Below, in pieces: positions 1,587 to 40,824 of a DNA stretch of 64,000 bases. Source of the DNA: a virus. How positions within the stretch are numbered: the first letter of the stretch is position 1; each line of letters starts with the position of its first letter. The DNA is taken from positions 1 through 64,000 of IMG/VR virus record IMGVR_UViG_3300005838_000623; one strand, 5' to 3'. Both the position numbers and the translations under genes were made by a program. A model generated the notes under the pieces. It did no database searches and was not told where the DNA came from. It saw only the letters and a list, made by a program, of their open reading frames with translations.

Positions 1587-1615
1587 ATTATAACATTGTA
1601 TAGTCATTATGTCAA
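1587..1615 (-). promoter_or_regulatory. Consensus sigma70 promoter for the leftmost radical SAM gene
   Basis: On the minus strand TTGACA (1615-1610) and TATAAT (1592-1587) are separated by exactly 17 bp, a perfect match to the bacterial sigma70 consensus. The -35 box overlaps the stop region of the upstream radical SAM gene (stop at 1607-1609). Predicted start of transcription is near 1580, giving a leader of about 125 nt. Confidence 0.85.
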
Positions 1616-2851
1616 CCCTTTAAACTCTGGAAAGGTATTACTGAATGATTCGTTACGGATGGAATCCATCTTGGCCGTTAATTTGATAAAGTCTTCTAAC
1701 AATGTAGGTATACTCGGTTGTTGAATAAAGTTTATAGCACTCTTATAACCATTGGTTGCTCTTTGCATTGAGTCGATAGGACTGATATAGTCGATATGTT
1801 TATAATACTTAGCTATAATCGCTTCCTTGTCTATATCTTTAAGATTGTCTATACGGTAGTAGGGTGGATTCATCAGTATGTTAATGTTGAAATCTTGTGC
1901 TTTAATTAAACCCTTATCGATCCACTCACGGTGAAAGTCTGGCATATGATACGAATTCAGTATACTCAACGTGCAACTAATGTAGAAGTCAACGTCTGGG
2001 CATACCCGTAACATCTTCTCACGATTGGACTCTATATCTCCCCATACTGTTTCCTTCCTTATATACTCTCCTCGTATACCCGAACCGTCTAATGAAGCAC
2101 CTATACTAACGGAGTCAAACTCTTTCCACATATCCAGTATACTCAATTGCTTATATTTGAGTTGCGAAAAATTGGTATTGTATATTAACTTAACGTCTGT
2201 TCGACCTTGCTTAATCAACTCCGCAATAATCTCCCAATGTGCGGCCATCATTAGGGGTTCTCCACCAGCGAAATATATCTGTTCTACGTATGGTATATGC
2301 CTTAAACATTCTTCTATATCCAGGTTACACTCAATTACTTTAGTATGATCAGGCTTACTACCGTGTAATGCCTCATAGTCTTGATACCAATTAGAGCTAA
2401 AGAGTGGACCACACGATCGGCAACGGAAGTTACATAGGTTACTAAACCGAACATCCCAGTATACTATCTCGAACGGTGGCTCTATAGAACGCGCCTTACT
2501 AACGTGATGACCGAAATGTTTATTAGCTGATACCCGGCCGCTCATAAAGCCATTCTTATCTTGTTCATAACACTTAGTACACTCTGGTAATGCTATACCG
2601 TTTATCATTTTACGTCTTACGTTTACCATATGGTCACTATGCCAAATCTCCTCTAGGGTATTGTCGTTAAGATTACCTATAGGCATATCCATATCAGACA
2701 TACAGCATAGGTGAACGGTAGAGTCTGGGTATGCGTGAGTATGAATCCACGGTAAGATACAGAACGTAGGGTTCTCCGTTAATACTAATTGTTCGTATCG
2801 TGGAAGGTCTTCTAGGTTAACCTTTACTGGTCGTTTATCGTTATAGTCCAT
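1607..2851 (-). CDS. Radical SAM protein, subfamily A (N-terminal SPASM-like region)
   Basis: This 414-residue protein has the radical SAM motif CNFRCRSC (C140, C144, C147) and the motif FAGGEPLMM. The first 100 residues contain FCILPW (C31), a CC pair (C49/C50), the phrase IGNLNDNTLEEIW and CTKC (C91/C94). This is the pattern of a SPASM auxiliary-cluster domain, normally found after the radical SAM core but here in front of it. It is closely similar over its whole length to the gene at 3753-5066, so the two are tandem paralogues. AAAGGAA lies about 13 nt before ATG. SPASM radical SAM enzymes usually modify peptides or proteins; the target here is unknown. Confidence 0.87.
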   Translation of the reverse strand: MDYNDKRPVKVNLEDLPRYEQLVLTENPTFCILPWIHTHAYPDSTVHLCCMSDMDMPIGNLNDNTLEEIWHSDHMVNVRRKMINGIALPECTKCYEQDKNGFMSGRVSANKHFGHHVSKARSIEPPFEIVYWDVRFSNLCNFRCRSCGPLFSSNWYQDYEALHGSKPDHTKVIECNLDIEECLRHIPYVEQIYFAGGEPLMMAAHWEIIAELIKQGRTDVKLIYNTNFSQLKYKQLSILDMWKEFDSVSIGASLDGSGIRGEYIRKETVWGDIESNREKMLRVCPDVDFYISCTLSILNSYHMPDFHREWIDKGLIKAQDFNINILMNPPYYRIDNLKDIDKEAIIAKYYKHIDYISPIDSMQRATNGYKSAINFIQQPSIPTLLEDFIKLTAKMDSIRNESFSNTFPEFKGLT

Positions 2852-2857
2852 AATTGA

Positions 2858-3094
2858 TTATATTCCTTTCGTTGAATAAAAGTTTATACGTTTAAACAAA
2901 ATAAAAAAGTTTTCAAAAACGTTGGGGCAATGTGACACAGAATAATATTTGGGCATGTTATGGCCCATGCATTTTTTTAGTCGCTCGAAATATTCTGCCC
3001 TATAGGAAAAATTTTTCTCTCGTTCGTGTAACGTAGAATCATCCGTCTCTGCGATCAATTGATATTTGCCAAATTCCTTCCCAACCTCTGCCAT
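2858..3094 (-). CDS. Small protein of unknown function
   Basis: A 78-residue frame rich in charged and aromatic residues, ending six bases before the radical SAM start at 2851. It overlaps the neighbouring 88-residue frame by 56 bases in a different frame, which is more than usual in this genome. Either one of the two has a later start (Met43 is possible here), or the two are one gene split by a frameshift. I recognise no domain or signal peptide. Confidence 0.45.
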   Translation of the reverse strand: MAEVGKEFGKYQLIAETDDSTLHEREKNFSYRAEYFERLKKCMGHNMPKYYSVSHCPNVFENFFILFKRINFYSTKGI

Positions 3095-3305
3095 AACTTA
3101 CTTCATGCCCGGCCGGGTTCCAATCTACAGGATAAAACAGTACCTGTGGAAATGATGGTGCTACTATAAAGGATCCTTCTAACCATTTACCATTTATTCT
3201 AACTAAAAATTTCTCACCCGGGTAATCTACATTCAACGTCATACGCTTTTGACCACTGTTGGATTTCAATAATACATCCAAGTTGATTGGGTACAGTGAT
3301 ATCAT
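3039..3305 (-). CDS. Small protein of unknown function
   Basis: An 88-residue frame with alternating hydrophobic and polar residues typical of a small beta-rich protein (for example KFLVRINGKWLEGSFIVAP). No clear Shine-Dalgarno sequence precedes ATG 3305. It lies in the same direction as the radical SAM genes. If the island makes a modified peptide, this frame and the neighbouring 78-residue frame are the only small non-secreted candidates for a substrate here, but no leader or core peptide features are visible. Function unknown. Confidence 0.5.
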   Translation of the reverse strand: MISLYPINLDVLLKSNSGQKRMTLNVDYPGEKFLVRINGKWLEGSFIVAPSFPQVLFYPVDWNPAGHEVSYGRGWEGIWQISIDRRDG

Positions 3306-3347
3306 GTTTAATTAAAGAATAGCAACATAATAAGTGGCTGAGAATTC

Positions 3348-3674
3348 TCAAAGAAGGGCACCATAAAACAAGGTACGTATAGAATATTGTCTATGATCAT
3401 ACGAGTATTTAGTGTGCTTACTGTTATGTTCATTCATAAATTCACGATACTCGTCAATCTTATTTTCATGCACACATGCAAGTCTAACCATTGCAACTTT
3501 ATTTTCAAATATAGTATTGAAACTTTCCAATACTTGTTGTTGAAATGCTGTATCCACTATTTGTGTTTCACATAAATCATTAGTTTCAAACGTAGTTACT
3601 TCATTAATAGTATACCAGTATTGAGGAAGTCCACTATTAAGGAGTACTACTATCATAGCAATAATATAAGTCAT
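3348..3674 (-). CDS. Small exported protein with two cysteines, unknown function
   Basis: A 108-residue protein whose first 15 or so residues (MTYIIAMIVVLLNSG) form a hydrophobic segment like a signal peptide or membrane anchor. The remainder is polar, with two cysteines (C35 and C67) about 32 residues apart, which could form a disulphide after export. AGGATCGGA just before the start is a plausible ribosome site. The layout (hydrophobic start, WY pair, two spaced Cys) resembles the 116-residue protein at 9277-9627. It sits between two radical SAM genes. Confidence 0.5.
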   Translation of the reverse strand: MTYIIAMIVVLLNSGLPQYWYTINEVTTFETNDLCETQIVDTAFQQQVLESFNTIFENKVAMVRLACVHENKIDEYREFMNEHNSKHTKYSYDHRQYSIRTLFYGALL

Positions 3675-3752
3675 GTTGTTCCGATCCTATATCTGTAGTG
3701 TATAAAATTTTCGCCAGACCAGGTATTCGGCTGGGTGTGACTCGGCGCCGCC

Positions 3753-5066
3753 CTACTCATTGTATAATTGCCCTAGTTCTGGGAATACTTCTAATAAGTT
3801 TTCGTTGCGATGCGTGTCGTATTTGTTTATTTCTTCTTTAAACTTCGGTAGTAAGTCTGTTCTGTCTTCGCTCATCATAAAGTTTATTGCGGCGTCAAAG
3901 CCGTTTGATGCTCGTTGAATATCATCTGTATCCTTAATATTATTTAAATGTTCTGTGTATAGTACTTTTATTTCTTCCTTCATCGTTGTTGGTAGTATAG
4001 TAGTTCTGTAGTAGTCGGGTCCTTGTAATATGTTTACGTGGAAGTCGAACACTTGTATTAATCCTTTATTGACCCAATCATTGTGAAAGTCTGGTAAGTG
4101 ATAAGCGTTTAATACTTGTAGCGTGGCACTTGGGAAGAAGTCTACATCAGGACATACTTGTAGCATTTCGGTTCTGTTGCGTTCTATTGTGTCCCAGTGT
4201 GTTCCTTTCCTGATGTATTCTGCTCGCTTTCCCATTCCGTCTAGAGATGCGCCTATGGAAACGTCTTCGAACTCTTTCCATACATCAAATACTAAGCGAC
4301 CTTTATACTTAACTTCACTAAAATTAGTGTTGTATATTAACTGTGTATCGAACTTCTTTCGTTTAACTAGTTCATCTATTAGTTTCCAATGCTCTTCCAT
4401 CATAAGAGGTTCGCCGCCAGCAAAGTATATCTTGTCCAAGTTATCTATGTATGGTTCTATCATTTCCCAGTTGGTGTGTTTGTTGCCTGTAGTGTATTCT
4501 ATTTTAAACGAAGTACCGCCATACATCTCATTAAGCTCTTTACCCCATACAGAACTAAATTGTGGTCCACACATGCGGCATTTAAAGTTACATTGATTGG
4601 TAAAACGTGTGTCCCAGTATATAATATTAGGCAACGAAGCACCATCATGTAGTGTGCCGTTTATTGTTTCTATAGCGTATGCGAAGTTTCTATTGCTTTC
4701 GTTACGTAATGAGTAGAAGCCATTACGTTCTTTCTCATAACAGTTAACACATTCTTTACACGGGATACCATTGAGCATGTTGTGTCGCATGGTACGATAT
4801 GGCGCATCATTCCATATATCTTCTACTGTGTCGTTACGTAAGTTGCCTACTGGTTCTTCGGAGACAGATATACAACATGGATAAGCTTCTCCAGTAGACG
4901 AACCATGTATGTGTATCCACGGCAGTATACAAAAGTGTTTGCTTTCCGTTAATAAATTATATTGTTTGGGTGTAAAAAATTCTACAGGTAATTGTTGTTT
5001 GTTCTTATCTAACAGTACTGTTTTGGAATCGTAAGGGTTGTCCTTACTTAAAAATCCCTTATCCAT
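3753..5066 (-). CDS. Radical SAM protein, subfamily A (tandem paralogue)
   Basis: This 437-residue protein carries CNFKCRMC (C159, C163, C166) and FAGGEPLMM. Its N-terminal SPASM-like region has C46, the CC pair C64/C65, VGNLRNDTVEDIW and C103/C106/C109. It is the full-length paralogue of 1607-2851; shared blocks include IYNTNFS, VSIGASLDG, AEYIRK or GEYIRK, and CPDVDF. Its start overlaps the end of the next radical SAM gene (5059) by 8 bases and lacks a strong ribosome site, so translation is probably coupled. Expected chemistry is SAM-dependent radical modification with one core and at least one auxiliary Fe-S cluster; substrate unknown. Confidence 0.88.
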   Translation of the reverse strand: MDKGFLSKDNPYDSKTVLLDKNKQQLPVEFFTPKQYNLLTESKHFCILPWIHIHGSSTGEAYPCCISVSEEPVGNLRNDTVEDIWNDAPYRTMRHNMLNGIPCKECVNCYEKERNGFYSLRNESNRNFAYAIETINGTLHDGASLPNIIYWDTRFTNQCNFKCRMCGPQFSSVWGKELNEMYGGTSFKIEYTTGNKHTNWEMIEPYIDNLDKIYFAGGEPLMMEEHWKLIDELVKRKKFDTQLIYNTNFSEVKYKGRLVFDVWKEFEDVSIGASLDGMGKRAEYIRKGTHWDTIERNRTEMLQVCPDVDFFPSATLQVLNAYHLPDFHNDWVNKGLIQVFDFHVNILQGPDYYRTTILPTTMKEEIKVLYTEHLNNIKDTDDIQRASNGFDAAINFMMSEDRTDLLPKFKEEINKYDTHRNENLLEVFPELGQLYNE

Positions 5067-6429
5067 TAGATAGTGTTCCGTACCATCGTTCTAAGTTAGG
5101 AAACGTCTGTATGAGGTTTTTGCCTCTACGTTCATCATATTGTCTATAAAAGTGATAGAAGTCATTCTCTAAAGCAGGTTGTTCAAACGTATCGCTGTGT
5201 GGTTTGTCTACTACATCTAAGTAGTCTATTAAACGGTTTATATGATTCTTTTCCATCTCATGCAAAAGCGGGTTATCAAAATTAAGTATTCGCCACAAAC
5301 TTAGGGTATAACGATAACTCGAGCGCAAGTATTTTGGTAGCACTAACGGTGATTGGAATGATGGAAAGCGTAATATGTTTAGAGTAAACGTTGGAAAATC
5401 CTCTCCGTACTCGCTCTTTAACAGCAGTACAAAGTCCAGGAACTTAGGTAACGAGTCTAAACATAAACTGTTTACAGTACACATCATATGAAAGCCTTCT
5501 AAGTTGCCTTCTTTGCACACACGATGGACGTTATTAACCCAAGTATCCCACTCTAACCCGTCTCTAATATACTCTGCTTGTGCGCCAAATGCTTCACAAG
5601 ATGTGTATAGATGTAAGTGGGGTACGTGTTGTGCGTTTTCTATAAAGCGATCTATTAGATCGTCTTTAGCACCTAAGTTAGAGTTAATAGCGAGCCGCAT
5701 ATCGGACTTCTTATTGGTAGTTCTAAACCAATCAAACAACTTCCATATCTCACCAGCCATCATAGGTTCACCACCAGTAATGCGTAGTTCGTCTAGTGTG
5801 TCGTGTAACTCTAACTCCCACCATTTCCAAAAGGCTTCTACGTATGGGTTAACTTCGTCGTGCTTGTATAACTGTGCTTCGTTGTGTTCGTGTGTAAAAT
5901 GGTTGCGTCCGTCTGACTTTAACTGTGTATACGCACCGTTGTTCTTTACATCTTTAACCCAAGAACTACTAAAGGCGGGATTGCAATAAGAGCAACTAAA
6001 ATTACAAGTCCTATCAAAGGCAATTTCCAATGTACGTAGAGCAAAATTCTCTGTAGGTTCTTCTTGTTTAACATGATATACGTCTTCCTCGTCGTATATA
6101 ACAGACTTATGGACACGATCAGAGATAGCGTCGGGTCCAATGTCTTCTATCTTCCAGCAATACTCACAGCCTGGTGGACGTTCGCCCGCAAGCATTTGTG
6201 TTCTATCCTGCTTCTTTTGCTGTGTGTTGTGTATAGCGGCAGGGTTTGTTGCTAGTTCTTTAATGTCTATCTTATGTGCTGGAGGGTGATGGCAACTAGT
6301 AGTCATACCACTCCCAAGCCATATGGTAGCATTGCGCCATTTAGCCATACAAAAGGATGGACTTACTGTGGTGTTAAGCCATCGCTTAATGTCTAAATCT
6401 GTTTCCCTACCCGGCGTTCTTAGCGTCAT
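5059..6429 (-). CDS. Radical SAM protein, subfamily B (His-containing N-terminal metal-site region)
   Basis: This 456-residue protein has CNFSCSYC (C142, C146, C149) and ITGGEPMM. Its N-terminal region differs from subfamily A: SFCMAKW (C27), then SCHHPPAHK (C46, H47, H48, H52) where subfamily A has CC, then CEYC (C88/C91). The block PPxHK is shared with the gene at 6758-8188, so a site normally all-Cys may have become Cys/His. The start overlaps the SufT-like gene by four bases (ATGA), placing both in one coupled operon. The C-terminal segment FYHFYRQYDERRGKN has a counterpart in the 6758 paralogue. Substrate unknown. Confidence 0.87.
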   Translation of the reverse strand: MTLRTPGRETDLDIKRWLNTTVSPSFCMAKWRNATIWLGSGMTTSCHHPPAHKIDIKELATNPAAIHNTQQKKQDRTQMLAGERPPGCEYCWKIEDIGPDAISDRVHKSVIYDEEDVYHVKQEEPTENFALRTLEIAFDRTCNFSCSYCNPAFSSSWVKDVKNNGAYTQLKSDGRNHFTHEHNEAQLYKHDEVNPYVEAFWKWWELELHDTLDELRITGGEPMMAGEIWKLFDWFRTTNKKSDMRLAINSNLGAKDDLIDRFIENAQHVPHLHLYTSCEAFGAQAEYIRDGLEWDTWVNNVHRVCKEGNLEGFHMMCTVNSLCLDSLPKFLDFVLLLKSEYGEDFPTFTLNILRFPSFQSPLVLPKYLRSSYRYTLSLWRILNFDNPLLHEMEKNHINRLIDYLDVVDKPHSDTFEQPALENDFYHFYRQYDERRGKNLIQTFPNLERWYGTLSNG

Positions 6430-6761
6430 AACATTCCCATTTCTAGTTTAGCATGTTCTGGTATCATCTCTGGCCCCCAAGTTGGGTCAAACGTCATATC
6501 TACTTTAATGTCATTGAGACCACCAACGTCACATGCCTCATTTACTTGTTGATATAACATGTCGCCAACAGGGCAAAACGGTGATGTTAACGTCATTGTT
6601 ACTGTTAAGTTTAAATCCTCAGTAATATCTATGTCATATATTAAACCTAAGTCGTATATATTGATATGTATTTCAGGATCATATATCTGTCGTAAGTTGT
6701 TTACTATTTGATCTACTATAGGATCAATGCCTTCTTCATATGTTGTTGCGTGTGTGTTCAT
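6426..6761 (-). CDS. SufT / MIP18 (DUF59) family Fe-S assembly protein
   Basis: A 111-residue protein with the DUF59 hallmarks in order: YDPEIHINIYDLGLIY near residues 27-42, SPFCPVGDML with the conserved Cys63, and a C-terminal DPTWGPEMIPEHAKLEMGM typical of SufT/PaaD-like proteins. The family helps deliver Fe-S clusters to client proteins. It overlaps the upstream and downstream radical SAM genes by four bases on each side, so it is made with them. The simplest reading is a dedicated assembly factor for these cluster-rich enzymes. Recognition is strong; the client assignment is inference from the operon. Confidence 0.88.
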   Translation of the reverse strand: MNTHATTYEEGIDPIVDQIVNNLRQIYDPEIHINIYDLGLIYDIDITEDLNLTVTMTLTSPFCPVGDMLYQQVNEACDVGGLNDIKVDMTFDPTWGPEMIPEHAKLEMGML

Positions 6762-8188
6762 AATTGTGCTAACCTCTTACATTCTTCCCACCAGTCTATC
6801 ATCTCTGGGAATGTTTCTATAAAGTTAGTGCCACGACGGGTGTCGTGCTCGTTAAAAAAGCGATAAAAGTCTGCTTTACAATTGTTTACATATACTGGAT
6901 CTAACTTACTACCTTCCTGCCACCATGCTAAGTCTCTATGCATACGTTGAATTTCATAATCTTTAAAGCCTTTAAAGCGAGATTTCTCGTCTTCCATGTT
7001 ATCTAACATCCAACATGTGTTCTCTTCGTGTATATCTTGGTATGGTTCAGGCAATAACTGTATGCTTTGCCAAGCAGGCTGTCGTAATAGCGGTGTATCA
7101 AACCATATACGTTGATAAGTTTCACTATATGCTTGTCGCAAACCGTGTATATAGCCTAATAACTTATCCATTCCTGTAATACTTAAATTGTTATATGTTA
7201 TAATAAACGTTAAAGAGTTTCTATACGGAACTTCCGTTAAGTATGTGTTGATATTATCGCACATCTTATTAAAGTCTAACCCATTACGTATATACTCGGC
7301 TTGTTCCAGCCAACTGTCTACACTAACGTATTGCATAAAGTGTTCTACTTTCTCTTCCAAGCATATGCGTTTAACTTTTTCTAAGTATTTGTCAAACAAT
7401 TTGTTGTCTACTGGACTAAAGTTACTTGTAACGTTTAAATGTAAGTCGCTTTTGGGATTGTCTATAATGTAATCAAATACTTTATGTGTATTTTTATCCA
7501 TCATAGGCTCACCACCAGTCATACGGAAATGCTTTAAGTCTTTATATAAGTCAGGCCACCACTCCCAAAACGCTTCTACATAAGGATTATACTTGCTGTG
7601 TGGTATGCAAGGGTTAATCTCAAAGTGTTCAGGTGCGTTATGTGGTTTAGATGTAGGCCAGGCACCGTGTTGTTTCATTTCTTTATCCCACGCAGTACTA
7701 AATTGCGGACTGCAATAACTACATTTTAAGTTACAGTTGTGGTTAAAGTTTACTTCTACATAACGCGGGTTCTTATCAGCATCCCAAGGAGCATTAACTA
7801 CTTCGTCAAAGTCCATTGCGGCCCACGGCTCACCACTTCTGTAATGCCTATCACTCATATGCCCAGTATCTTCTATGTTCCAACAGTACTGACACTCGCT
7901 AGGACGTACACCTTCTAGCATAAGTTTACGCATTTCTTTCTTATGTTGGGTGTTGTGTAGAGCAGACGGTGTGCCTAACTCCATTTTATGTAGTGGTGGG
8001 TGGTAACAACTGTTGTTTAATCCAGTTGGTAAATGTAAACTAACTTGGTTCCACTTTGCAAGACAAAAGGATGGTGATACAGAGTCTAACTGTACTTTAA
8101 TATCCTCGGCACTTCTATAGAAATCTGACTTAAACTTACCATCCTTAACTTCTATTTTGTCGCCCTTATTGTCTTTAAAAAGTTCCAT
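6758..8188 (-). CDS. Radical SAM protein, subfamily B
   Basis: This 476-residue protein has CNLKCSYC (C152, C156, C159) and MTGGEPMM. Its N-terminal region reads SFCLAKW (C42), SCYHPPLHK (C61, H63, H67) and CQYC (C99/C102), matching the paralogue at 5059-6429. A long C-terminal region rich in Trp and acidic residues ends with FYRFFNEHDTRRGTNF, a motif also present in the paralogue. It begins the coupled series 6758, 6426, 5059, 3753. The upstream small basic gene overlaps it or ends three bases before it, depending on reading frame (see 8152-8358). Confidence 0.87.
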   Translation of the reverse strand: MELFKDNKGDKIEVKDGKFKSDFYRSAEDIKVQLDSVSPSFCLAKWNQVSLHLPTGLNNSCYHPPLHKMELGTPSALHNTQHKKEMRKLMLEGVRPSECQYCWNIEDTGHMSDRHYRSGEPWAAMDFDEVVNAPWDADKNPRYVEVNFNHNCNLKCSYCSPQFSTAWDKEMKQHGAWPTSKPHNAPEHFEINPCIPHSKYNPYVEAFWEWWPDLYKDLKHFRMTGGEPMMDKNTHKVFDYIIDNPKSDLHLNVTSNFSPVDNKLFDKYLEKVKRICLEEKVEHFMQYVSVDSWLEQAEYIRNGLDFNKMCDNINTYLTEVPYRNSLTFIITYNNLSITGMDKLLGYIHGLRQAYSETYQRIWFDTPLLRQPAWQSIQLLPEPYQDIHEENTCWMLDNMEDEKSRFKGFKDYEIQRMHRDLAWWQEGSKLDPVYVNNCKADFYRFFNEHDTRRGTNFIETFPEMIDWWEECKRLAQL

Positions 8189-8358
8189 AGTTTACTTAGG
8201 CTTTTTCTTTTTCTTTGTTTTATCTTTACCTGGTTTGTCTCTACTTTTACTTTCCATCCTTGCCTCCCTTTTTTTCTAGTTGTATCAGTAGGTCCAAACT
8301 CTCCCATGCTTTTACCATGTAGTTTAGTTCTACTAAAGTTATAAAGGTCATGATTCAT
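8152..8358 (-). CDS. Small basic protein, possibly with a -1 frameshifted C-terminus
   Basis: A 68-residue, lysine-rich frame starting at ATG 8358, directly at the end of the glycosyltransferase-like gene, and running 37 bases into the next gene. A run of seven A residues (8275-8269, minus strand) is in the phase A AAA AAA, a known type of slippery heptamer. A -1 shift there would give an equally basic tail ending in KDKTKKKKKPK at stop 8192-8194, only three bases before ATG 8188, a more normal spacing. The shift could be programmed or an assembly error. Function unknown. Confidence 0.55.
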   Translation of the reverse strand: MNHDLYNFSRTKLHGKSMGEFGPTDTTRKKGRQGWKVKVETNQVKIKQRKRKSLSKLWNFLKTIRATK

Positions 8359-9284
8359 TACCAGCCTTCAATGCCGCGTATTACATCTAATTCTTGTATC
8401 ATTATATCATAGTTTGTGTGCTTGCTGTAATGTGTTTTAAAGAACTTACTTGCTTCAGCATCCATTTCGCATATAGGCATACCTAATTTGTTCTGTAATA
8501 TTTCTCCTATACGCTCTGCTTCATCCCATGGGTTTTGCATTTCGTATTCTCCATGATATATCTCATTGAGGTATGTAAAGTCTCTTACATTAATGTAATC
8601 CCAATCGGTAAGCATAGTTAAATATGTGCCTAACCGTGCGCCGTATATACTCCATATGCCGTGCTCAACATCGCGTCCTACAGTTTGCCATATACATAAG
8701 TTATCTAAGTTACGAGCGTGTATTTGTTGTTCAAATGTTTTTAAATCAGGTTTAGTTCCTTTGTTTAAAACCATCTTAACACCTTCTCTAAACCCAGCAC
8801 GCCATGCGTGTAATGCTGAACCATTTGGGTATGTTGTGCTATAGCAGTTATGCATTGGTCTGTAGTTGTCGTCAAAACAAAACTCTACTAATGTTTCATC
8901 AGAACCATCAGTGTTCTCATGTGTAGTCATGTTTAAAACAAAGTCCACAGGCCAACAACTTAACCCACCATTACCATACATTAGTCCGTTTATAATATTA
9001 CGACCCTTCCATCTAAACACACAATGTTTAGTAACATCATCCAATGTTAATTGTAAGTTAAAAAACTCTGGGTCGGGTAAGTTATCACCGTCTATTAAAA
9101 CAAATCGTCCTGAGGGAGAAGCTCTAGCCGCGGCCTTGTGTGCGGCATCTGATCCTTCTATACCATCAATGTGTATTGCCCATGGCACCATGTTTAGTAT
9201 CTTGGCCCAAAACTCATCCTTTTGTGGCTCATCGTATGTTAAGTATATGCAATCTAAGTCAGCAATGTCAACTATTTCAGTCAT
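8358..9284 (-). CDS. GT-A-type glycosyltransferase-like protein
   Basis: I place the start at ATG 9284, seven codons inside the longest frame, because GGAAGGA sits just upstream. That gives 308 residues. The N-terminal half has the layout of nucleotide-sugar transferases: CIYLTYDEP, then GRFVLIDGDNLPDPEFF with a DxD-type motif (D66 and D68), the usual metal and sugar-nucleotide site. Two other glycosyltransferase-like genes lie just upstream in the same direction, so the island probably alters a glycan or glycosylates a protein. The sugar and acceptor cannot be told from sequence. Confidence 0.6.
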   Translation of the reverse strand: MTEIVDIADLDCIYLTYDEPQKDEFWAKILNMVPWAIHIDGIEGSDAAHKAAARASPSGRFVLIDGDNLPDPEFFNLQLTLDDVTKHCVFRWKGRNIINGLMYGNGGLSCWPVDFVLNMTTHENTDGSDETLVEFCFDDNYRPMHNCYSTTYPNGSALHAWRAGFREGVKMVLNKGTKPDLKTFEQQIHARNLDNLCIWQTVGRDVEHGIWSIYGARLGTYLTMLTDWDYINVRDFTYLNEIYHGEYEMQNPWDEAERIGEILQNKLGMPICEMDAEASKFFKTHYSKHTNYDIMIQELDVIRGIEGW

Positions 9285-9627
9285 ATTCCTTCCTAAACAT
9301 ATCAAGACATATTCGATAGTTAATACATTTTACTAAGTGGTGGTGTCCGTTTGGATAAAATGAATTTGGCCGTGCCGCCAGGCCTGGCCATGACCGTCTT
9401 TGTTCGGATGTTCTCGCAAGTAATTCTTTTCTACATATAGCATCCATACGTAAATTAGGATTAAAGTTCTGGAATATACGATGTGTAGTCATTATATCTT
9501 GCGCCGCACCCCGACACTCTCCTTCCGAATGCATTCGTATTTGATACCAAACATCATTCTCACCTTGGTAATGTCCACTAAATGGACCTACACTCAACAT
9601 TATCATTAATAACCATGGTTCCCACAT
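9277..9627 (-). CDS. Small exported protein with two cysteines, unknown function
   Basis: A 116-residue protein with a hydrophobic N-terminus (PWLLMIMLSVGPFSG) like a signal peptide. It contains WYQI, then C38 and C65. AAGGAAATAAC precedes the start. It overlaps the glycosyltransferase-like start by eight bases. The arrangement resembles the 108-residue exported protein at 3348-3674, suggesting distant paralogues, though identity is low. Not recognised otherwise. Confidence 0.55.
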   Translation of the reverse strand: MWEPWLLMIMLSVGPFSGHYQGENDVWYQIRMHSEGECRGAAQDIMTTHRIFQNFNPNLRMDAICRKELLARTSEQRRSWPGLAARPNSFYPNGHHHLVKCINYRICLDMFRKEYD

Positions 9628-9637
9628 TGTTATTTCC

Positions 9638-9898
9638 TTAAGGGTAAATTACTCCAAACTTATCAGAGTCTTTAGTATTAAACTCCTTTTCAAATTTGTT
9701 TGCTTCTGCCCTTCGTTTGAACATTACTTTCACACCAGCGGCGTAGACAGTGTTATCTACTATATATTCATTTTCACAGTTTTTTTCACACCAAGTTTTT
9801 ACACTTCTGTAAATGCCAACTGCTTTTTTAAACTCGTTGTTTTCTATAATTTCCCCTGTGTCAGCTTCCCATGGGAATGTTGCATGTTTTGTTATCAT
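9638..9898 (-). CDS. Hypothetical protein (86 aa)
   Basis: An 86-residue soluble protein preceded by a good ribosome site (AGGAG). Its ATGA start overlaps the stop of the gene at 9895, so translation is coupled. Two close cysteines (WCEKNCENEY) and the phrase MFKRRAEANKFEKEF are visible, the latter reminiscent of small phage proteins that read host or viral amino-acid strings, but I cannot assign a family. Confidence 0.6.
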   Translation of the reverse strand: MITKHATFPWEADTGEIIENNEFKKAVGIYRSVKTWCEKNCENEYIVDNTVYAAGVKVMFKRRAEANKFEKEFNTKDSDKFGVIYP

Positions 9899-10308
9899 TT
9901 TTTCTCCTGTTGTAATTGATAATAATTTTCATCTTTATTGAATTTTACTTTATCAGCAGTAATAATTTCTTTAATAATCCTATGATCCTTGTCTGTAACA
10001 TATACGGGTAAATCTGGATCTAATTCTGTTGCGTGTGTTACTTTAGTATATTTTCTTAAACGGTTATATACGTCATGTTTAATTGGTTCTAACTTACCAT
10101 TAATTATTACCCAATCAGTAATGTGATTAGTGTCTAACCATTTAGAAGGGACTTTAATATGAAGACGGAACTCATCTACATATATGGATGCTTCATATAT
10201 AATGCCGTTATCATGATAATATAAGCAGTAATCTACTTTAGCAACTTCTAATTCTTCCTGTGATTCAATTGCTTCTATTAAATCATCTATTCCTTTAATC
10301 GTGCTCAT
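9895..10308 (-). CDS. Hypothetical protein (137 aa)
   Basis: A 137-residue protein with an acidic N-terminal helix (DDLIEAIESQEELEVAK), then alternating strands (YCLYYHDNGIIYEASIYVDE) and a mixed C-terminal half. It overlaps the glycosyltransferase-like gene upstream by 14 bases and the next gene by four, so it belongs to the same operon. No domain is recognised. Confidence 0.6.
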   Translation of the reverse strand: MSTIKGIDDLIEAIESQEELEVAKVDYCLYYHDNGIIYEASIYVDEFRLHIKVPSKWLDTNHITDWVIINGKLEPIKHDVYNRLRKYTKVTHATELDPDLPVYVTDKDHRIIKEIITADKVKFNKDENYYQLQQEKK

Positions 10309-11158
10309 AGTATTCTATTGTTTTATCTGCTAGGTACTCTTTACACTCTGCACCATGTACTGGATATATTTGCGGCTCTACGCCTAATATTAAACCAACG
10401 TCATCACTATACTCTATATTAATAATATCTTCTATCTCATGTTGCTCTGGCCAACCCAGTATGTTGTTTTTCATATGCACAAATGTTGGGTAGTCTAACA
10501 CATTATTTGTATGTGTATATTCTGCTTCTTGTAACACTAATGCTATTGCTAACGCAACATCAGTAGTAGGCTTTTCATCTCTACAATTTTTTAAACATTC
10601 AGATACTTCATCCCAATTTTTATAAACCCATTTAAGTGCTCTAAACAGTTTTAAACTTTCTTCTCCATAACGGAAGTACATAAACCCACTATAAGTGTTA
10701 GGTAAGTTGTTGATATCAAAGAGTTTTCTGTACTTGCGTGAGTTAGATATAGAACCGTCTAGTTTACGAACATTGGTCGCAATCATTACTTCCTGCTCAC
10801 GCATAAACGTCCACCAATGATCTATATTGCGTGTAAACACAATATCACAATCTAACTTAACTGTCTCTTTAAATGGTGTTATTGACCATGCTTTCCATTC
10901 ATTGCCTAACTTCCATGAGTCATCCTCACTATCATCGCCCCACGGAATGTCTACTACATAGTCAAATACTTTGTAATGCTTTTCTGTTAATTGTTCTTTA
11001 GTTGGTTTATCTACAGCGATGGCAAACTTGTTTATAGTTTGTGTTGCTTTTAGACTTAATCCACAGGCGTATGCTAGTTTTAAATAGTCAGTATCGTTGT
11101 TATTTTGAACAAATGTGAAGTACCCAATTTGTTCATTATGTTCCTTGATTCTTTTCAT
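10295..11158 (-). CDS. GT-A-type glycosyltransferase-like protein
   Basis: This 287-residue protein has the segment ITPFKETVKLDCDIVFTRN, with a DxD motif (D103, D105) preceded by a hydrophobic strand as in GT8-like enzymes. After it come an acceptor-domain-like region (PNTYSGFMYFRYG) and a late EKPTTDVALAIAL segment. The next gene upstream has the same layout (TPYEKTLLLDVDYLMF), so the two are paralogues. They overlap by 23 bases. Expected role is transfer of a sugar from a nucleotide donor; the acceptor is unknown. Confidence 0.62.
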   Translation of the reverse strand: MKRIKEHNEQIGYFTFVQNNNDTDYLKLAYACGLSLKATQTINKFAIAVDKPTKEQLTEKHYKVFDYVVDIPWGDDSEDDSWKLGNEWKAWSITPFKETVKLDCDIVFTRNIDHWWTFMREQEVMIATNVRKLDGSISNSRKYRKLFDINNLPNTYSGFMYFRYGEESLKLFRALKWVYKNWDEVSECLKNCRDEKPTTDVALAIALVLQEAEYTHTNNVLDYPTFVHMKNNILGWPEQHEIEDIINIEYSDDVGLILGVEPQIYPVHGAECKEYLADKTIEYYEHD

Positions 11159-12014
11159 ATGTCACATGCGTTTTTTGATTTGATATAACAGGTTGAAACA
11201 CATAATCTAATATCTCTTTAGCACAATTTATTATACTATGCTTGTTCATAATATGAATATTAGTATTTGTTATATAAGATACTTCTATTTTATTTTTATT
11301 TTCATATTCATATATTACACTAGTATCTGGTTTTACTCTAGTTAATGTGCTTTCTGAAGGGAGAGTAAACAAAGGACTCTGAAAATAACTATTACAGTTT
11401 AATAAATTATATGCAATACTTATAGCATAGTCATTTCTGTATGGGCCACTTCTGAAATTATATAAATTGTAATAATATTGATAGTTATCTCGTACTAACT
11501 TAACAAGATTAAAAAACTCCTTTGCTGTATTATTTTTAGTAAAATATAATACAGTTGCCCATAACATTGGAGTACTACTCCAGTGTAATAGTTTGTCATC
11601 TATAAAACTGTTTTTACCTGTAATGTCATAAACATTATTATGGCATATTAATTCTTGATCAGATTCAAATAGCCATTGCAACGAGTTATTAAACATAAGA
11701 TAATCTACGTCTAATAGTAATGTTTTTTCGTATGGGGTTAAATCATATGCGTGTGGGCGAGTTTTATTGTGCCAAGTAACTTCTTCTGTCTTACCATTAG
11801 GAATTCTAAAAGTGCGGTGGCCACTATCACCTGCCTCAACTATGATAACATCATCAAAAGGATGTCCTTCATCTATATTTTTATCAGTGACTAGGGTTAC
11901 ACCACAATGTGGTAAATGTTTTTTAACTAATAATGTACAGAGCTTAGCTAGTTCTGTATATTTTATTGATTCATTATTGTATGCAAACAATAATATGCCA
12001 TTTTCTGTGGCCAT
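11136..12014 (-). CDS. GT-A-type glycosyltransferase-like protein (paralogue)
   Basis: This 292-residue protein has LTPYEKTLLLDVDYLMFNN (DxD at D102/D104), then STPMLWATVLYF and a YRNDYAISIAYNLL segment matching the neighbouring paralogue. The C-terminal part is AT-rich and Asn/Lys-rich. Its start lies immediately beside the 116-residue gene at 12016, so both would be read from the promoter at 12374-12402. Substrate not known. Confidence 0.62.
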   Translation of the reverse strand: MATENGILLFAYNNESIKYTELAKLCTLLVKKHLPHCGVTLVTDKNIDEGHPFDDVIIVEAGDSGHRTFRIPNGKTEEVTWHNKTRPHAYDLTPYEKTLLLDVDYLMFNNSLQWLFESDQELICHNNVYDITGKNSFIDDKLLHWSSTPMLWATVLYFTKNNTAKEFFNLVKLVRDNYQYYYNLYNFRSGPYRNDYAISIAYNLLNCNSYFQSPLFTLPSESTLTRVKPDTSVIYEYENKNKIEVSYITNTNIHIMNKHSIINCAKEILDYVFQPVISNQKTHVTYEKNQGT

Positions 12015-12015
12015 C

Positions 12016-12366
12016 TTATAGCTGCTCGGGCTTTCGTATTCCCCTAATCTTGTTCATTTGTACCATATATTCGTTATTAACTTCATAATATCGTTGCCAT
12101 AATTTTTCACAAAATTCTTGTGAGTTTTCTATTAATATAGGATTATCATATGAATCTAATATTATTGTGGGATTTGCTTTTAAATCTGCTGATTGTGCTA
12201 TTTGTTGGCGTAACGAAAGCATTTCAGCAAATGTAATTAATTCTCTGGTTACTTTAAATAAACCGCTGTTATAGGGGAGGGATAATAAACCTAGAGTGGC
12301 TTCACGCATTGTTGCGTGGGCCACTTTTTGGTTAAACTTCTTTTTAACTGTATCTTTTACACTCAT
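12016..12366 (-). CDS. Hypothetical protein, first gene of the accessory operon
   Basis: A mostly helical 116-residue protein (TMREATLGLLSLP, ITFAEMLSLRQQIAQSADLKANP). It is the first gene after a perfect sigma70 promoter whose -10 box ends only seven bases before ATG, and no Shine-Dalgarno sequence is present, so its mRNA should be leaderless or nearly so. It heads the minus-strand series of glycosyltransferase and radical SAM genes. No family recognised. Confidence 0.65.
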   Translation of the reverse strand: MSVKDTVKKKFNQKVAHATMREATLGLLSLPYNSGLFKVTRELITFAEMLSLRQQIAQSADLKANPTIILDSYDNPILIENSQEFCEKLWQRYYEVNNEYMVQMNKIRGIRKPEQL

Positions 12367-12373
12367 ATATAAT

Positions 12374-12402
12374 ATTATACATGAATTCTTTCATTATGTC
12401 AA
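12374..12402 (-). promoter_or_regulatory. Consensus sigma70 promoter, leaderless configuration
   Basis: Minus-strand TTGACA (12402-12397), 17 bp, TATAAT (12379-12374), then exactly 7 nt to ATG 12366. The predicted transcription start falls within about one base of the initiation codon. It lies between the late structural block and the accessory island and would drive the whole island early. Confidence 0.87.
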
Positions 12403-15829: not shown

Positions 15830-18800
15830 TTATATTACCTTGGGAGTTGATAGCGGTGCCTCTTTAAGGAACGTTACTTGTTTGGATGTTGCCATACCTA
15901 GTCCTAAACTGTTTGTGGCAGTTGATCCGCCTTGATCATACCAAACTTTAGTATGAACATCTGTGCCTGGTATTAATTGTTGTTTACTGCCATCTACTAC
16001 TTCACTTGCTGTAGCATGTGTAGCATGAGCACCTGTGCCCCATGTGCCACGACGTATTCTTTTTAGTTTGTTACCATCTATTTCCCAATATTCTATACGC
16101 TCGCCATTAATGAATATTACACCTGGCGTTGCTGTTGTTGGAACAGGCGTCAATAATTTAGTTGCGTCTGTTACGTTAATTTCTATATCTGTTAAAGCCA
16201 ATGCTGTAGACAATGTTGTTGTGTTTGCTGTTGCAATTCTATAGTAAGATGTTTTGTCAAACATATCCTTCCAAATTCTAAAAGCAATGCCATCTCGTTG
16301 TTCTGCTTTACGCATGCCGGTTACAGTAATCATATCTGTTGCTAATATACTACCAGCTGCTGGAGTCATTACTAAATTAGTACCAGTTATATAATAATCA
16401 TGGTTTGCAATTTGTGGTATGCCATTTAACCATACCCATACATAGTTTATATTTCTTTCTAATACCGATATATCATAAACTGGTGTTGAAATTGATACAC
16501 TAACATCACCTGCATATCCACTAGTATCAAAAATTATTGTATCAAATCTTTCTAAATGTAATAATGTTGCAACTGATGTGCCTTTTATTACAAGTGTTTT
16601 GCCTTTACTGTATCTTTGATTAGAGAATGATTGTACAAATAATTTGTCACCAGTAGTTATTGTTCCAGCAGTAACAGATACACCACTACCATTTTCAAGT
16701 ATAACTTGGTAATCATTTTGGATCCAATATTGACCATTTCTAATCGTAATTCCTATTTCTGCGCCTGTTGCAGGAATATTACCAACAGTAAATGTTATTT
16801 GGTCACGTGCAGGTGATCCACCAGTAAATGTATAATGTGTTGTAAGTGTTTGCAATACACCATCTACATGTACTTGAACATCAGCATCAGTTACTGATCC
16901 ATATGCAATAGTTGGATTAGCTGGACCATCATATACCGCTAATACTCCGTTACCTGTATAGTATTCTGTATCTGGTGGATTTAATCGTGTGTTGTTCAAA
17001 TATACAAATGCTTTTGCGGCATCAGGGCCAAATTCAAAGAAGTTATCCTGGCCATATGTATATGTGTAACTTGCAGGCCATGTTGGACTACCAGGAACTG
17101 TAATTGTTTGTTCTTCACTTTCAACTTTAACAAATGGTCTAATTGCTTCTATTTTGCCATCTGTTACAATAGCAGTTGCGGTTGCTGTGCCTGTAATTGC
17201 AACAGTTGGTGCTGATGTATATCCAGTACCTGCGTTTGTTACAATTAATCCACTTACCTTGCCTTCAGCATTAATAACTGCTGTAGCCGCCGCGTTAGCG
17301 CCGCCACCCCCACTAAATGTTACTGTTGGCGCTGATGTGTAGCCACTACCTGCATTTGTAATTGTTAATCCTGACTTATTAAATGTATGCACTCGTATAC
17401 GATCGTTATTTCCTGGTGCTGAAGCAAATGTTATTTTTGTTTTCTTATAATAACTTGATGCTGTCCATGTCGGAGCGTTTTCTATACCATTTACAGTTAT
17501 GTACAAGTATTGTGCATATTCATATGGTACATTCACAATAAACTGTGTTGTTGAAGTATCACCAATAAAGTCTTGTTTGGTTGATGTAACCGTATCACCA
17601 CCTGTTTCAATTAATACAAAATGTATTAATTGTCCTGCTGGTACAGGAGATACCATTGTTATAATATTCGTCTCCATATCAATAGTATAATTTGTTGTTA
17701 ATTTTTGTAATATTCTATCAATATATATTCCAACACCGGTAACATTTGTGGGTAATTTACCTTTAGAACTAAAATCATAAATTACAGCAGATCCATTACC
17801 TTCAAATGTATACTTTTTAATAGTAACACCAGTGTCTCGTGGTGATGGCATTTCGTATACTTTGATATCTAATGTATCAAATACACGACCAGGTACTTGT
17901 TCTTCTGGTGCGTGTGATGTATATTCTGTTACAAAACCATCACCATCTACAGCAACATTGGCAGGATCAATACCACCACTTGTACTAAAATCACCACCAC
18001 TTAGGTCAGTATCTACGCTTGATATAATTTTTACACCTTCTGGACTTATTTCAAAATCATCAAATTTTGATGAGGCATATGTTGCCCTGTCATAGCCAGG
18101 CTCCATATCAAATGTGGCACCAACTACCTTATTTGCTTTATATTGTAATCCAGAATCTGCTATAACAGCATCATATGTTGGAATGTTTGCTGTTTTATTA
18201 TCCCAGGTTTTTGTACTGCCGGTGCCTGTTTGTCCACCAGAGTAAAATAGTGTTAAGCGATCACTATGCTTTTTAGCGGCCGCTTCATGTGCTGTTTCCA
18301 ACTTATTGTAGGATGAGTATGAAACTGTTGCTGTTGCCGCGGCACTAGTACCACCGCCACCACTAAATGCTACGGTTGGTGCGGCAGTATATCCTGTGCC
18401 TTCTTGTTCTACGACAACTGCTGTTACTGCTCCACCGGAAATAACTGCTTTGGCACTTGCTCCACCACCTGTTGTATCTCCTGCGGCATTTGTTATTGTT
18501 ATCGTAGGTGCTGAGGTGTATCCACTGCCTCCAGCAGTTACGGCAATAGTTGTAACGTGTGATGGTGAATCAACACGATCAAACTTAATTGTTTCTTTAA
18601 TATCTCTTACTTTATAATTTTCTAAATTAACATAACCAGTTGCTCCACTACCACTACCACCTGAGATAATTACCTTCGGGGTAGTTACATATCCGGTACC
18701 AGCTGATGTTACGGTAATAGAATCTACCGTATCTAATCCAGGTGTTTTCATTACAGGAATAGCTGTAGCACCACTACCATCTCTGTGTGTGCCATCTTCT

Positions 18801-21800
18801 AGTGCTGAAATTCTAAAGTAACCATAATTTAAGTTACTTGGATCATTTTGTCTAAAAGTATATGTTGAACCTCTATATAGTGTAATATTGGGTCGTTCTA
18901 TACCATCAATATAAAAATCAGGACTACCTGTACTATCTAATACTACAGTTATAGCAAATATTTTGTTTTCATTAGGAGTTACTTTATCCTTAATTGTAAA
19001 TTTCCAACCCATATCTTTCCATTGAGTAGAATTTTGTTCAGTACCACTATAATACCATAATATATCTGGGGTATGCTCTGGTACAACAAGAACAGCATTA
19101 GCAGTGGCCGCACCAGGTATTGCTGACACAGAATATGAGTAACCTAATTCCCATTGCGCGCCACTTGAAATAGTAACTATTGGTAGTGATGCTGAAATTG
19201 CACTAAAATCATAACCAGTTGTGTCATGTCCAATAGAATCATATGTAGTTGTAGATGTAGTAGCATAATTACTGCCAGCAGTTAATACGTCAACACTGGT
19301 CACTTTCTTTGTATAATGATTATACCAATCAATCCAAGGTGTTGTAAGCATTCGAACATCGTCGTCCGCTTCATATACATTAGGTGATCTAAATAGTTTG
19401 TCTGTTGTATCATAATAACCTGGTAAATCAAAATCACTATTACCTATTTGTGGAAGTTCAGTATAATTGTAACGGAATACATGTTCTCTAATATTAGTTC
19501 TATATGGTTTCGCTTCATTAATATAATCTTTAATGCTATCTTCTATGTCATAACTGTAATTTACAAGTTCAGATAGTTTACGTACTGTTTGATTAATTGT
19601 TATAAAACTTGTCTTAAATGCCCAATCAACTCGCTGAGTTTGGTCATATAAAACATATTGAATTAATTCAAACCATAATTTATTAAATTCTATTGCTATT
19701 GAGCTTATAAACATTTCAGTATTCAAAGCATCTATAATATAATGAAGTTCTGTTAATGGTGTAGTTGTTGTATACAATGTTGTCTTAAATTTAATTGTAG
19801 CATTTTGTAGACCAATAACATCATATGTATCAGATGCAGTATTTGTATTCTTATATAATACCCATTTATTTTGTCCATCATTTAATACCTTAACTATATC
19901 GCCAAGTTTAGTGTCTAATTTTTTACGATCATTTTCTGTTGCAACCGTATAATCAACAATGGTATTAGCATTATAGCCAGTAGCATACCAGTCTATATAA
20001 TCCCAATATTTTGTTGTGTCATACTTTTGTTTCTTTTCAAAATTCCATCTATTTTCACTAGTATTCCACTGATATGTTGTCCAATAATTGCCTTTTGTTT
20101 CATCTTTTGTTATGAGTACTTTATAACCATTTGCAATTGTGCTTGTATTAATATAAGTTAGTTCAGTATATGTTGCTACGGTTTCACCGTAACCATATGT
20201 TGGTGCTTTTTCTGCTGATGAAATTTTTACTAGACTATAGTCTAATGCTATTTTATTTTTAGCAAATACGGTATTACAAAAGTTAACTAATACTTTAATA
20301 GCACCTAATCTATCAATAAACATACTTTGTCGTGGATATTCCATTATACCATAACGTGATCCAACATGCACGTTTAGATCTGGTACTAGGTTCTCTTTAG
20401 CATCTTTACCTGCTAAACTTTCTCCAAGTTTAGTAATTAGATAATTGTTTGGTTTGGACAGTGGGTTATTTGACTGAACTAATTGCCATTCTGTATGTAA
20501 AGGTATATCATTTTTAACAGTATCATATTCAATACTTAAAATAATATTATCAGCAGTTAAATTTGTCTGTAAGTTATGCCCAACAAACGCATTCGGCGCG
20601 GCAATACCTATATATTTTAATCCGTATTCTGTAGGATTTTTTAGTATTGTTGCGACAGTCTTTGCTGGCAATTTTCGTGTAGCGGCTGGAATAAAACTTT
20701 TTAATTCAAGTTCATTACCATACGCCGCAAATTTAATCTGTCCATTAGCGTCCAAATACGTTGTAGATACTTCTGGAACAGAAGTTTTGTTTTTAACCCA
20801 ATAATAATAGATTGGTTCTAAAGAATTTGTTGTAATATTATACTGCTGATATTCAACATATGCCGCATCGTTAGAGAATTTAGGCGTCCCGTCACCTCCA
20901 TTTATTACATATGATGATGGCAATGTATCACTTTCAACCCATTCGTATATATTAATTTGTGCACCGGGGAATAATTTACCCCAATTAAGTTTGCGATATT
21001 CCATATCACCCTGTTCGTAATCAATATATTTTGTATTGGTTAAATCCCACCATAATGTACCAACTTCATTTGGACCCCAGTGGTTATTTAGATCGTTAAC
21101 TACTGTTGTATCGGTTGTAATGTTATATACTGCTGGATCATATAACGTTTTAAAACTAATTTCCTCGTCAGCAATGCCTGGTATTTTACCTTTAATTGGA
21201 TCAATATAATCAATATAATCAATAAACGTATTAGATGATTTATCATATGTAATGACCTTATTAATAGTATTAATGTCTACCTTGTCATTTTGTGTACGTT
21301 TACTGTTCCATGAAATTTTGTTTAATTTGTTAGTCGCCTCCATAACAGAGCCAGTATTCTGTGTAAATTTCTTGACTGCTATCACTGATGTTGCAACTGG
21401 GATTACTGTAAATGTTACTGAGCTGTTTGGTGATGCATTATCACTACTATACTCTGATGTAAGCATTACCCTACCGTTCATTGTAATTTCTAAATCAGCA
21501 GTAGCAAATTGTCCTGTTAATGCATACGTCGATGCAATTCCATCCGCTGTTATTGTTTGTGTTGTATAATAATCGTCACCAGGAGCACCAATTAATGCTG
21601 TATTGCCAACCATTACTAAACCTGTGCCAAACTTATCATTCTTTCTACGTCCTGCCCAATCTACTCGCTGTATTAATGAATATGACAAATCAGTATTAAT
21701 ATCGTAAATTAATGCCGAACCAGAGTCTGCTTGTATATCAGAAATTATTGTATTCCCATTATCAAAAGTAGTAATGTTAGTGTCTAAAGACATAACAAAT

Positions 21801-24800
21801 TCACTAGAACTTGTCGGACTTCCGATTGTGATCATTGTTGCTGTATTATTAAATGCAATATGTTCACCATAATAAGCATTTTGCGGACCATCTGGGTGAC
21901 GCAATCCTGATTTATATGTGTATAGTGTTAGGCCGAATGCTGTAAACACTACATCACCATTCGTCGTGCCTGGACGTATTGTAAGTTTGGCATTAGCATC
22001 GGTTTTTGTACTAACAATTTTTAATTTATTATCACTTGTAGCAGATGCAGTTATGTGTGGAATTGCTTTTGTTGTGATATCACCTACTACATTAGATAAT
22101 GCTGTGCCAGTAAAGGTTACTTCAACATCATTAATGACGAGTTTATCACCAATACTCACAGTTGGATTGGCAACAGTACCAGTTATTATACCACTATGTT
22201 TGGCATCATCTATCCAGCATTCTACCTCACCAGAATTGGTTGCTGATACAGTTGAGTCTGTTACAACAATAAAGTCAGCGCCTGGTGAACCAATAGCAAT
22301 TATATGTCCGTCCACACCACACTCAACTTCCCTACCAAATTTCTCATTTAAATCTGTTACGTTGCTCTTAATATCTTGTATTTTAAAATAAGTATCGGTA
22401 GGTGTTTTACCCCAAACTTCGATAGCACCTGCTGATAATATTGTATTATCTGCTTTGTTTGGTTGTCCAATATATGCAATGGCACCATCATCACTTATAG
22501 CAACACTACGCCCAAAGTCTGTACCCGACACACCAGTAAATGTTTTAATGACACTATAGTAGTTTCCTTTCTTTATATGGATATTGTCAGTACCAGTTGG
22601 AGGAACAGTTATAAATGTAATTTGTGTAGCACTTAAAGTATAATCTAAAGCTTCAATCATAATTTGGCCATCTACAATTACAGTTAGTTCATTTGTGTTA
22701 CTATGTGTTGTTGTAGAAAATACAAACACATTAGTAGAATTGTCTCCATTAAAATATTCATTATTAGCAGTAACACCAGTGCTTAATTTATACATATATG
22801 CTTTAAGTTCACCTGGTGCACCTACTAATACGTATGTACCATTTTTACTTACAGCAACATCATAACCAAATAATCCGTTTGTTGTAGGACTTGATGAACG
22901 CATAATGTCAAATGGTTCGTATGTCTTGTCTGTTTTCTTTTTAAGTACGATAGCATAGCCTTCACCACTATTACTATTTGGAGCACTTGTTATAATATAG
23001 TCATCTGTGCTTGCCGTATCAAATTGCCAACCTGCCCAACCACTATTCTTCAATTTACTACCATCTATAACAGTATTGCTATATGTAAAATCTCCAGGTG
23101 TTAATGCAACTGTTAGTGCATTACTACCACCCGGATCTAATGGCACTGTGTCTGTTTCTAATGTTGGTATCTCTTTATATGTTGGTCCAATAATGTAAGG
23201 ATACACTACTGTTCCATCACTTTTAATTGTTAAGAAGTAAGCATAAGTTCCATCAGGATAATCTGGCGTTACACAGTAACGACCATTATGCTTATCTAAT
23301 GTACCTGCACTGGTAACAATACGATAATCTTGTATAAATGTTCCTACAGGATATTCTGTATATGTATAACCACGACCAGAAACTGGCTCTGGATAGGCTT
23401 TATATGTTGATGTCATACGTGTTGGCGTGGTTGTTGAATTTGTGGCAGTTGAGTAGCCAAATGGGCCATAGATTGGATAACCATCATATGCATAGCCTAG
23501 GATTTTGGAGTGCCCGTCAGTGTGCCTCCAGTGATCACCACTATAATTGGTGCCTTGATAATATGTATTTGCTTGATATACATGGTAATCCCATTGACTT
23601 AAAAATTTGCCGCTGTGGTAATGGTACTGATCATCTTCTTGCGGATGTCCATGTGAAGCATCCATACCAACTGCCGTTGCGTTTACTATACCGTTCCATT
23701 CAAATCCTGTTGGAGCAACACCCTTGGCTGGGCCATTATCGTTTGGTAGTGTTGCCGTTGCTGAAGGACTTGCAAATATAACGCCGTTTGCCGCAATACC
23801 AATACCACCTAGTGGTACAGTTACTTGTGGAGCTGCTGTAGTATTTGTTCCTACACGAGTTTTAAACGTATGTTTGTAATTGCGTGTTACAACTCTATTT
23901 GGATTTTTTCCATCTGCTGTGGGAAATGTTCCAAATGGTGCTGGGTGTGGTAATCCATCACTTTCTACTGTTAGTAAGTAACCTGAAGTACTTAATGTAC
24001 TTAATGTTTGTGATGTGATATCACTTACAAATATGCTTTTAACATCAAACACTGTAGCAACATCACGTGTCCATTGTTCAATATTACCTGCTGATGTTGT
24101 ATCATATACCGCACTAACTAATATTGTCGACAGGTCTTTATTGCCTGCGACACCTTGTCCAAATCCTGTATTAATTGTTTTACTATTAGGAAATAATTGT
24201 TTTCCTAATGTGTAAGGATCTTTCTTTTCAAGCATAGCCCATTTATTAGTACTATTATGATTATCAATCCAAGCATAGTCACCATCTTGCCAACCATATG
24301 TCGGTGATGTTCTATTGAGTAATGCAGAAGTAGTTGCATATCTGGAACTTTCTAATTTTAAAAATTCTCCAAAAGCAGGAAACGCGTCAACAGTGCCAGT
24401 AAGTTGAACAAATGCTATATTTTGTACGGTATTAGCATGTAATACTAAAGAATTGACACCAGTACTTGATAAGTTAGTTTTAACTTTATAAATTCCACTA
24501 TAGTCAGTACCATCAACTGCGTCAATAAATCGACGTAATATAATATAATCATTGGCTAATATGGTACCAACTGGATTTTTAAAACTTACTTTAATTTCAT
24601 TAATTGCTGGTGAAGAAATACTAGTTATGCTACCAAATGTTGCACTAATTCTATATACGTTCCAGTCATTTGAATTCTCTAGGTATGTTGATGGGTATGT
24701 AGTAGAATTTGCTACCCAAATTTTGTCTCCTATTTTAAAGGAATTCAAATATGTACTTTTAGCAGTGAGTTTTATAGCGTCATCGACACCAGTTACTACG

Positions 24801-40799: not shown

Positions 40800-40824
40800 C
40801 AATTTACTTTAAGTGCGTTATAAT
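40796..40824 (+). promoter_or_regulatory. Consensus sigma70 promoter of gp47, leaderless configuration
   Basis: TTGACA (40796-40801), 17 bp, TATAAT (40819-40824), then 7 nt to ATG 40832. The layout is identical to the promoter at 12374-12402. Start of transcription should fall at or beside the initiation codon; no Shine-Dalgarno sequence is visible. Confidence 0.88.

Follow-up and report, generated by a model that had tools for sequence, protein, structure and literature searches.

The analysed window is a stretch of 64,000 nucleotides of viral DNA (positions 1 to 64,000 of IMG/VR record IMGVR_UViG_3300005838_000623). Its minus strand carries orf116, a gene preceded at very short distance by a sigma70-type promoter and followed by a series of tightly packed genes:

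12397–12402, minus strand: TTGACA, the –35 hexamer ahead of orf116, identical in every close relative
Between the two hexamers, minus strand: 17-nt spacer separating TTGACA from TATAAT
12374–12379, minus strand: TATAAT, the –10 hexamer ahead of orf116, likewise identical in every close relative
12373–12367, minus strand: ATTATAT, the seven-base gap ahead of the orf116 ATG
12364–12373, minus strand: ATTATAT plus the ATG (12366–12364), with the predicted transcription start at A 12366 or at most 2 nt before it
12016–12366, minus strand: orf116, encoding a 116-aa protein, predicted leaderless, with conserved M1 and N-terminus
1607–12014, minus strand: genes that follow orf116, most of them overlapping or almost overlapping
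1607–2851, 3753–5066, 5059–6429 and 6758–8188, minus strand: four twitch-domain radical-SAM enzymes (NF033640)

The initial annotation had described a TTGACA-17-TATAAT-7-ATG arrangement devoid of a ribosome site, and this layout was indeed found on the minus strand with the ATG at 12366. Both hexamers by which a sigma70 promoter was defined (TTGACA and TATAAT, 17 ± 1 nt apart and conserved) are present. No SD motif, taken as AGGA, GGAG or GAGG in the region from –18 to –3, was detected at orf116 or at gp47 (see below). Across the parent genome such motifs occur at ca. 42% of predicted starts versus 6% of internal ATGs, the former being an upper figure because the choice of starts there favoured SD motifs.

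No family for orf116 was found in PHROGs, Pfam or NCBIfam, and PDB sequences, searched with a profile, yielded insignificant matches only; its AlphaFold2 model had a mean pLDDT of 82. Each of the four radical-SAM genes matched NF033640 with E below 1e-90, and the gene order of the island is kept in G001 (the parent contig, see below), G002, G004 and G007, that of the four tandem radical-SAM genes in three relatives. The earlier placement of orf116 at the head of an island is supported, since it leads conserved and tightly packed genes that include the four radical-SAM enzymes.

The plus strand of the same window carries the gp47 locus, for which an identical promoter layout had been noted as well:

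39960–40799: gp55 homologue
40796–40831, plus strand: gp47 promoter, TTGACA-17-TATAAT-7 before the ATG
40796–40801 and 40819–40824, plus strand: TTGACA and TATAAT of this promoter, the latter followed by AATATAG
40832–41857, plus strand: gp47 (SbcD-like nuclease), predicted leaderless

Here, too, TTGACA-17-TATAAT-7-ATG was found, with a –35 hexamer that includes the TGA stop codon of gp55. A third perfect promoter (1615–1587, minus strand) was rejected as a leaderless case, as the next gene starts 131 nt further on. This promoter overlaps the end of a radical-SAM gene and is followed by a leader of ca. 125 nt, in which no unusual folding energy was observed (z 0.12).

Conservation of the orf116 start region was examined among 13 IMG/VR loci encoding full-length relatives, in lineages of 100, 79, 78, 70 and 68% protein identity. 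Every one of these lineages retains the two hexamers 17 nt apart, with 0 of 12 hexamer positions and 3 to 10 of 17 spacer positions changed. Looking for equal spacing in related genomes, as the initial annotation had suggested, revealed that relatives down to 68% identity retain a gap of 6–7 nt between TATAAT and ATG (7, 7, 7, 7 and 6 nt in the above order of lineages), and a distant relative of ca. 35% identity (L017) has a weaker promoter ca. 14 nt ahead of its ATG. For gp47, the gap is kept at 7 nt in relatives of 95–100% identity and amounts to 11, 12 or 15 nt, without SD motif, in those of 80% identity, while some relatives at 55–60% identity have SD-led starts.

The same comparison bears on the possibility that orf116 truly starts further inside, behind an mRNA leader of 40–60 nt, as in-frame start codons do occur within its first 60 nt (GTG at codon 15 and ATG at codon 20). 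However, M1 is invariant, and the protein sequence of the first 14 codons is conserved while the DNA carries synonymous changes; this speaks against an internal start. Moreover, ATG20 is replaced by AAG in all relatives examined, and GTG15 is not preceded by an SD motif. We consider such an internal start very unlikely.

The window lies in reversed orientation within IMGVR_UViG_3300025676_000713 (G001), an IMG/VR contig of 322,647 bp belonging to a marine T4-related jumbo phage in which gp55, gp47, gp46, a gp43-type polymerase and the TATAAATA late motif are present. With d denoting the number of nucleotides that separate a promoter motif (TATAAT or the late motif) from the ATG, 8 of the 18 perfect sigma70-type promoters in G001 have an ATG at d=6–7 that opens an ORF of at least 40 codons (Poisson p 2e-10; Poisson p-values given here assume site independence, and those of the clade records are not independent of one another, as the records are mutually related). 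No start of such an ORF follows any of the 18 promoters at d=1–5 or d=8–15, and control TATAAT sites in G001 lacking a –35 hexamer yielded 0 of 214 at d=6–7. Among near-perfect promoters (at most one mismatch), 12 of 54 are positioned at d=6–7, with d=6 occurring eight times and d=7 four times. The seven-base gap itself is thus not special in the parent genome, 6 nt being commoner at near-perfect promoters.

These counts also address whether a perfect promoter might simply have come to abut an ATG by chance in AT-rich DNA, given that the window has a GC content of 36% and that TATAAT is frequent in it. Three perfect TTGACA-N15-19-TATAAT promoters were observed in the window against 0.24 expected from shuffles (0 of 100 shuffles reached three), and neither the TATAAT-only control nor the permuted motifs described below showed a peak. 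Together with the spacing peak and the conservation, this statistically excludes coincidence, to which we attach next to no probability.

About 12–14 genes of the phage have a sigma70-type promoter 6–7 nt before their ATG. In G001 these are mainly replication and nucleotide genes; among the products are DNA polymerase, primase, gp47, a PD-(D/E)XK exonuclease, an IMP dehydrogenase/GMP reductase-like enzyme, a nucleoside deoxyribosyltransferase-like protein, dNMP kinase and ferredoxin, and a ThyX-type thymidylate synthase joins this class in the relatives G004 and G007. At perfect promoters in six clade records every start at d=6–7 is an ATG, and the few GTG or TTG cases go with weaker promoters. 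The layout is kept by orthologues of primase in four records, of DNA polymerase in four, and of the exonuclease in G001, G002 and G011 (48% identity) as well as in the Pseudomonas aeruginosa phage isolates PA5oct and Paride, where a perfect promoter lies 7 nt before the annotated ATG of the exonuclease without SD motif. Some orthologues have an SD motif instead, namely gp43 and gp47 of G010 and the exonuclease of the enterobacterial jumbo phages CBB, GAP32, 121Q and RaK2. Furthermore, gp47 and some other genes show gaps of 9–15 nt without SD motif in relatives of 56–80% identity, indicating that strict leaderlessness is not kept everywhere. In the smaller or more distant G007, G010, G011 and PA5oct, the sigma70 peak is weak or, taken alone, not significant.

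A second class, absent from the initial annotation, surfaced when the genes of the sigma70 class were checked for T4-type late promoters. The motif NATAAATA is followed by an ATG at d=5 at 21 of 100 sites in G001 (p 9e-19), at 21 of 111 in G011, at 9 of 50 in G002 and at 9 of 45 in the cultured Pelagibacter phage HTVC008M (p 5.5e-10). The class is small in PA5oct (5/145, p 2e-3), and the corresponding counts are 0/65 in T4 and 1/59 in the Synechococcus phage S-PM2. Seven motifs with permuted letters gave no peak at d=5 (0–2 of 125–299 sites). In total, about 21–25 genes of the phage have a gp55-type late promoter 5–6 nt before their ATG, with one example from the window being:

51519–51531, plus strand: late promoter AATAAATA, then CTAAT (5 nt), then the ATG at 51532
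51532–51777, plus strand: 81-aa gene, phrog_13986, predicted leaderless late gene

The d=5 spacing of this gene also occurs in its relatives of 88, 50 and 41% identity. The gene at window position 15812 (late motif, d=6) was omitted as ambiguous, as an AGGA overlaps its promoter. In HTVC008M, the annotated starts of the tape measure, baseplate wedge initiator, tube cap and DNA end protector genes are located exactly at d=5. This phage (NC_020484.1; loci L465–L475) has nine leaderless-type late genes, including a CsgF-like gene, which lie at annotated starts where checked.

Two further features of the window may be recorded. A single reading frame of 4847 codons (15830–30373) adjoins the structural genes, and an Rfam freshwater-2 RNA motif (56086–56163, 63.9 bits) ends on the start codon of a 207-aa gene at 56161.

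The base preferences of leadered promoters allow the transcription start to be predicted. Leadered sigma70 promoters of the same genomes favour T (0.59) at position 6 and A (0.62) at position 7 after TATAAT, and leadered late promoters favour A (0.63) at position 6 after the late motif, as they do in T4. Because the A of the leaderless ATGs falls on these favoured positions (d=6, or d=5 in the late class) or one base later (d=7), the A of the AUG is predicted to be the first base of the mRNA; for orf116, this prediction builds on the spacing and on the T6-A7/A8 preference of leadered promoters in the same clade. In addition, 64 of 69 late leaderless genes have a pyrimidine directly before the ATG, versus 243 of 544 genes with an SD motif (p 1e-15), which fits an RNA polymerase start site and is unlike an ordinary start codon.

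It could be argued that the promoters are real but that the ATGs are mainly translated from read-through transcripts, by re-initiation or 70S scanning. In agreement with this, upstream genes on the same strand stop 39 nt ahead of orf116 and 32 nt ahead of gp47, and the relatives with gaps of 9–15 nt without SD motif could be read likewise. Such coupling, however, predicts neither an ATG fixed at +1 of two promoter types nor the preceding pyrimidine, rendering translation from read-through transcripts improbable as the main route.

The leaderless class might also be real but merely reflect a background level common to all phages. Of 110 perfect promoters in IMG/VR loci that had been collected with a different spacing in view, six have d=6, and in an IMG/VR-wide comparison of spacings by how often the ATG opens an ORF of 40 codons or more, this was so for 90 of 130 ATGs at d=6 versus 31 of 120 at d=11, among the matches listed. 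Nevertheless, near-perfect promoters at d=6–7 number 12 of 54 in G001 versus 2 of 88 (p 2e-4) in T4 (0/8), S-PM2 (1/28) and PA5oct (1/52) combined, and the late class is absent in T4. This leaves a general background as a minor possibility. Pattern matches in SCTP-2, in S-PM2 and, in one case, in PA5oct were discounted for lying off annotated starts. The initial remark that leaderless early genes are uncommon in T4-like phages holds for T4 and S-PM2 at both promoter types, but neither for the present lineage nor for the late promoters of HTVC008M.

Taken together, we estimate a probability of roughly 0.8 that orf116 is transcribed from its sigma70 promoter as a leaderless mRNA, and that it is one of parallel sigma70 and late leaderless sets in this phage. 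With the ATG located where transcription should begin, the messages probably lack both leader and ribosome-binding site. The initial interpretation is thereby supported in part: its prediction of leaderless mRNA has strong support from the conservation, the genome-wide spacing peak and the start-site base preferences, and the scheme extends beyond early genes, as gp55-type late promoters show it too. From these sequence features we infer the actual 5′ ends, the leaderless translation and the early or late timing, the label "early" being taken from the promoter type, which is that of the host, and from what the other genes of the class do.

In the proposed mechanism, host RNA polymerase with sigma70 would recognise the orf116 promoter soon after infection, and the mRNA would begin at the A of the AUG or at most 2 bases before it. 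The 70S ribosome would then bind this 5′-terminal AUG directly with initiator tRNA, without need of an SD motif, and the downstream island genes might be translated off the same message via overlapping or adjacent cistrons, as their layout suggests. A more far-reaching and rather doubtful extension is a separate leaderless channel, in which, during infection, the phage itself or the state of its host would shift ribosomes or initiation factors so that translation would favour the leaderless early replication genes and late structural genes over host messages.

Leaderless mRNA itself is already known, and its translation is characterised by kasugamycin-tolerant, direct binding of the ribosome to the 5′-terminal AUG. 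In established systems, it is the 70S ribosome with initiator tRNA that does so, and lambda cI is the model leaderless mRNA of bacteria and phages (review PMC9031893). Like this group, the genes described here have no SD motif and a host sigma70-type promoter, and their AUG is predicted to lie at the 5′ end or directly beside it. Lambda cI is, however, the only phage example in that review, whereas the present case comprises dozens of predicted genes in one genome and in two promoter classes. In Lactococcus cremoris, leader lengths are bimodal with none of 4–14 nt (PMC10986495), similarly amounting to either no leader or a proper one with few or no intermediate lengths; that distribution was measured on RNA of a host transcriptome, whereas our spacings are predictions from the DNA of phages, with intermediate gaps in a few relatives. 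T4 has the same early (sigma70) and late (gp55, TATAAATA) promoter elements, but its late motif mostly lies 13–40 nt before the ATG and never at 5 nt (65 sites). The late TATG promoters of phiKZ, as cited in PMC5312081, likewise abut or contain an ATG sequence; there, the phage's own multisubunit RNA polymerase starts at the G of TATG, in contrast to the host-type and gp55-type promoters of the present phage. Phage transcripts frequently lack leaders, according to the same paper. Within the open-access literature searched, leaderless genes of T4-related phages turned up in no paper, and their systematic use by a T4-related lineage, at its sigma70-type as well as its late promoters, provisionally appears not to have been described there.

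To our knowledge, what is known of leaderless translation in phages comes mostly from a single gene, lambda cI. The present data, strongly backed by comparison among genomes, predict it for the genes of DNA polymerase, primase and exonuclease and for numerous structural genes, both in T4-related jumbo phages and in HTVC008M, a phage of Pelagibacter available in culture. Start codons in such genomes would then be annotated differently, and PA5oct and Paride in strain PAO1, together with HTVC008M in Pelagibacter, would offer cultured systems for measuring leaderless translation during infection. Finally, the occurrence of one and the same gene in SD-led and leaderless forms would reveal repeated evolutionary switching between the two.
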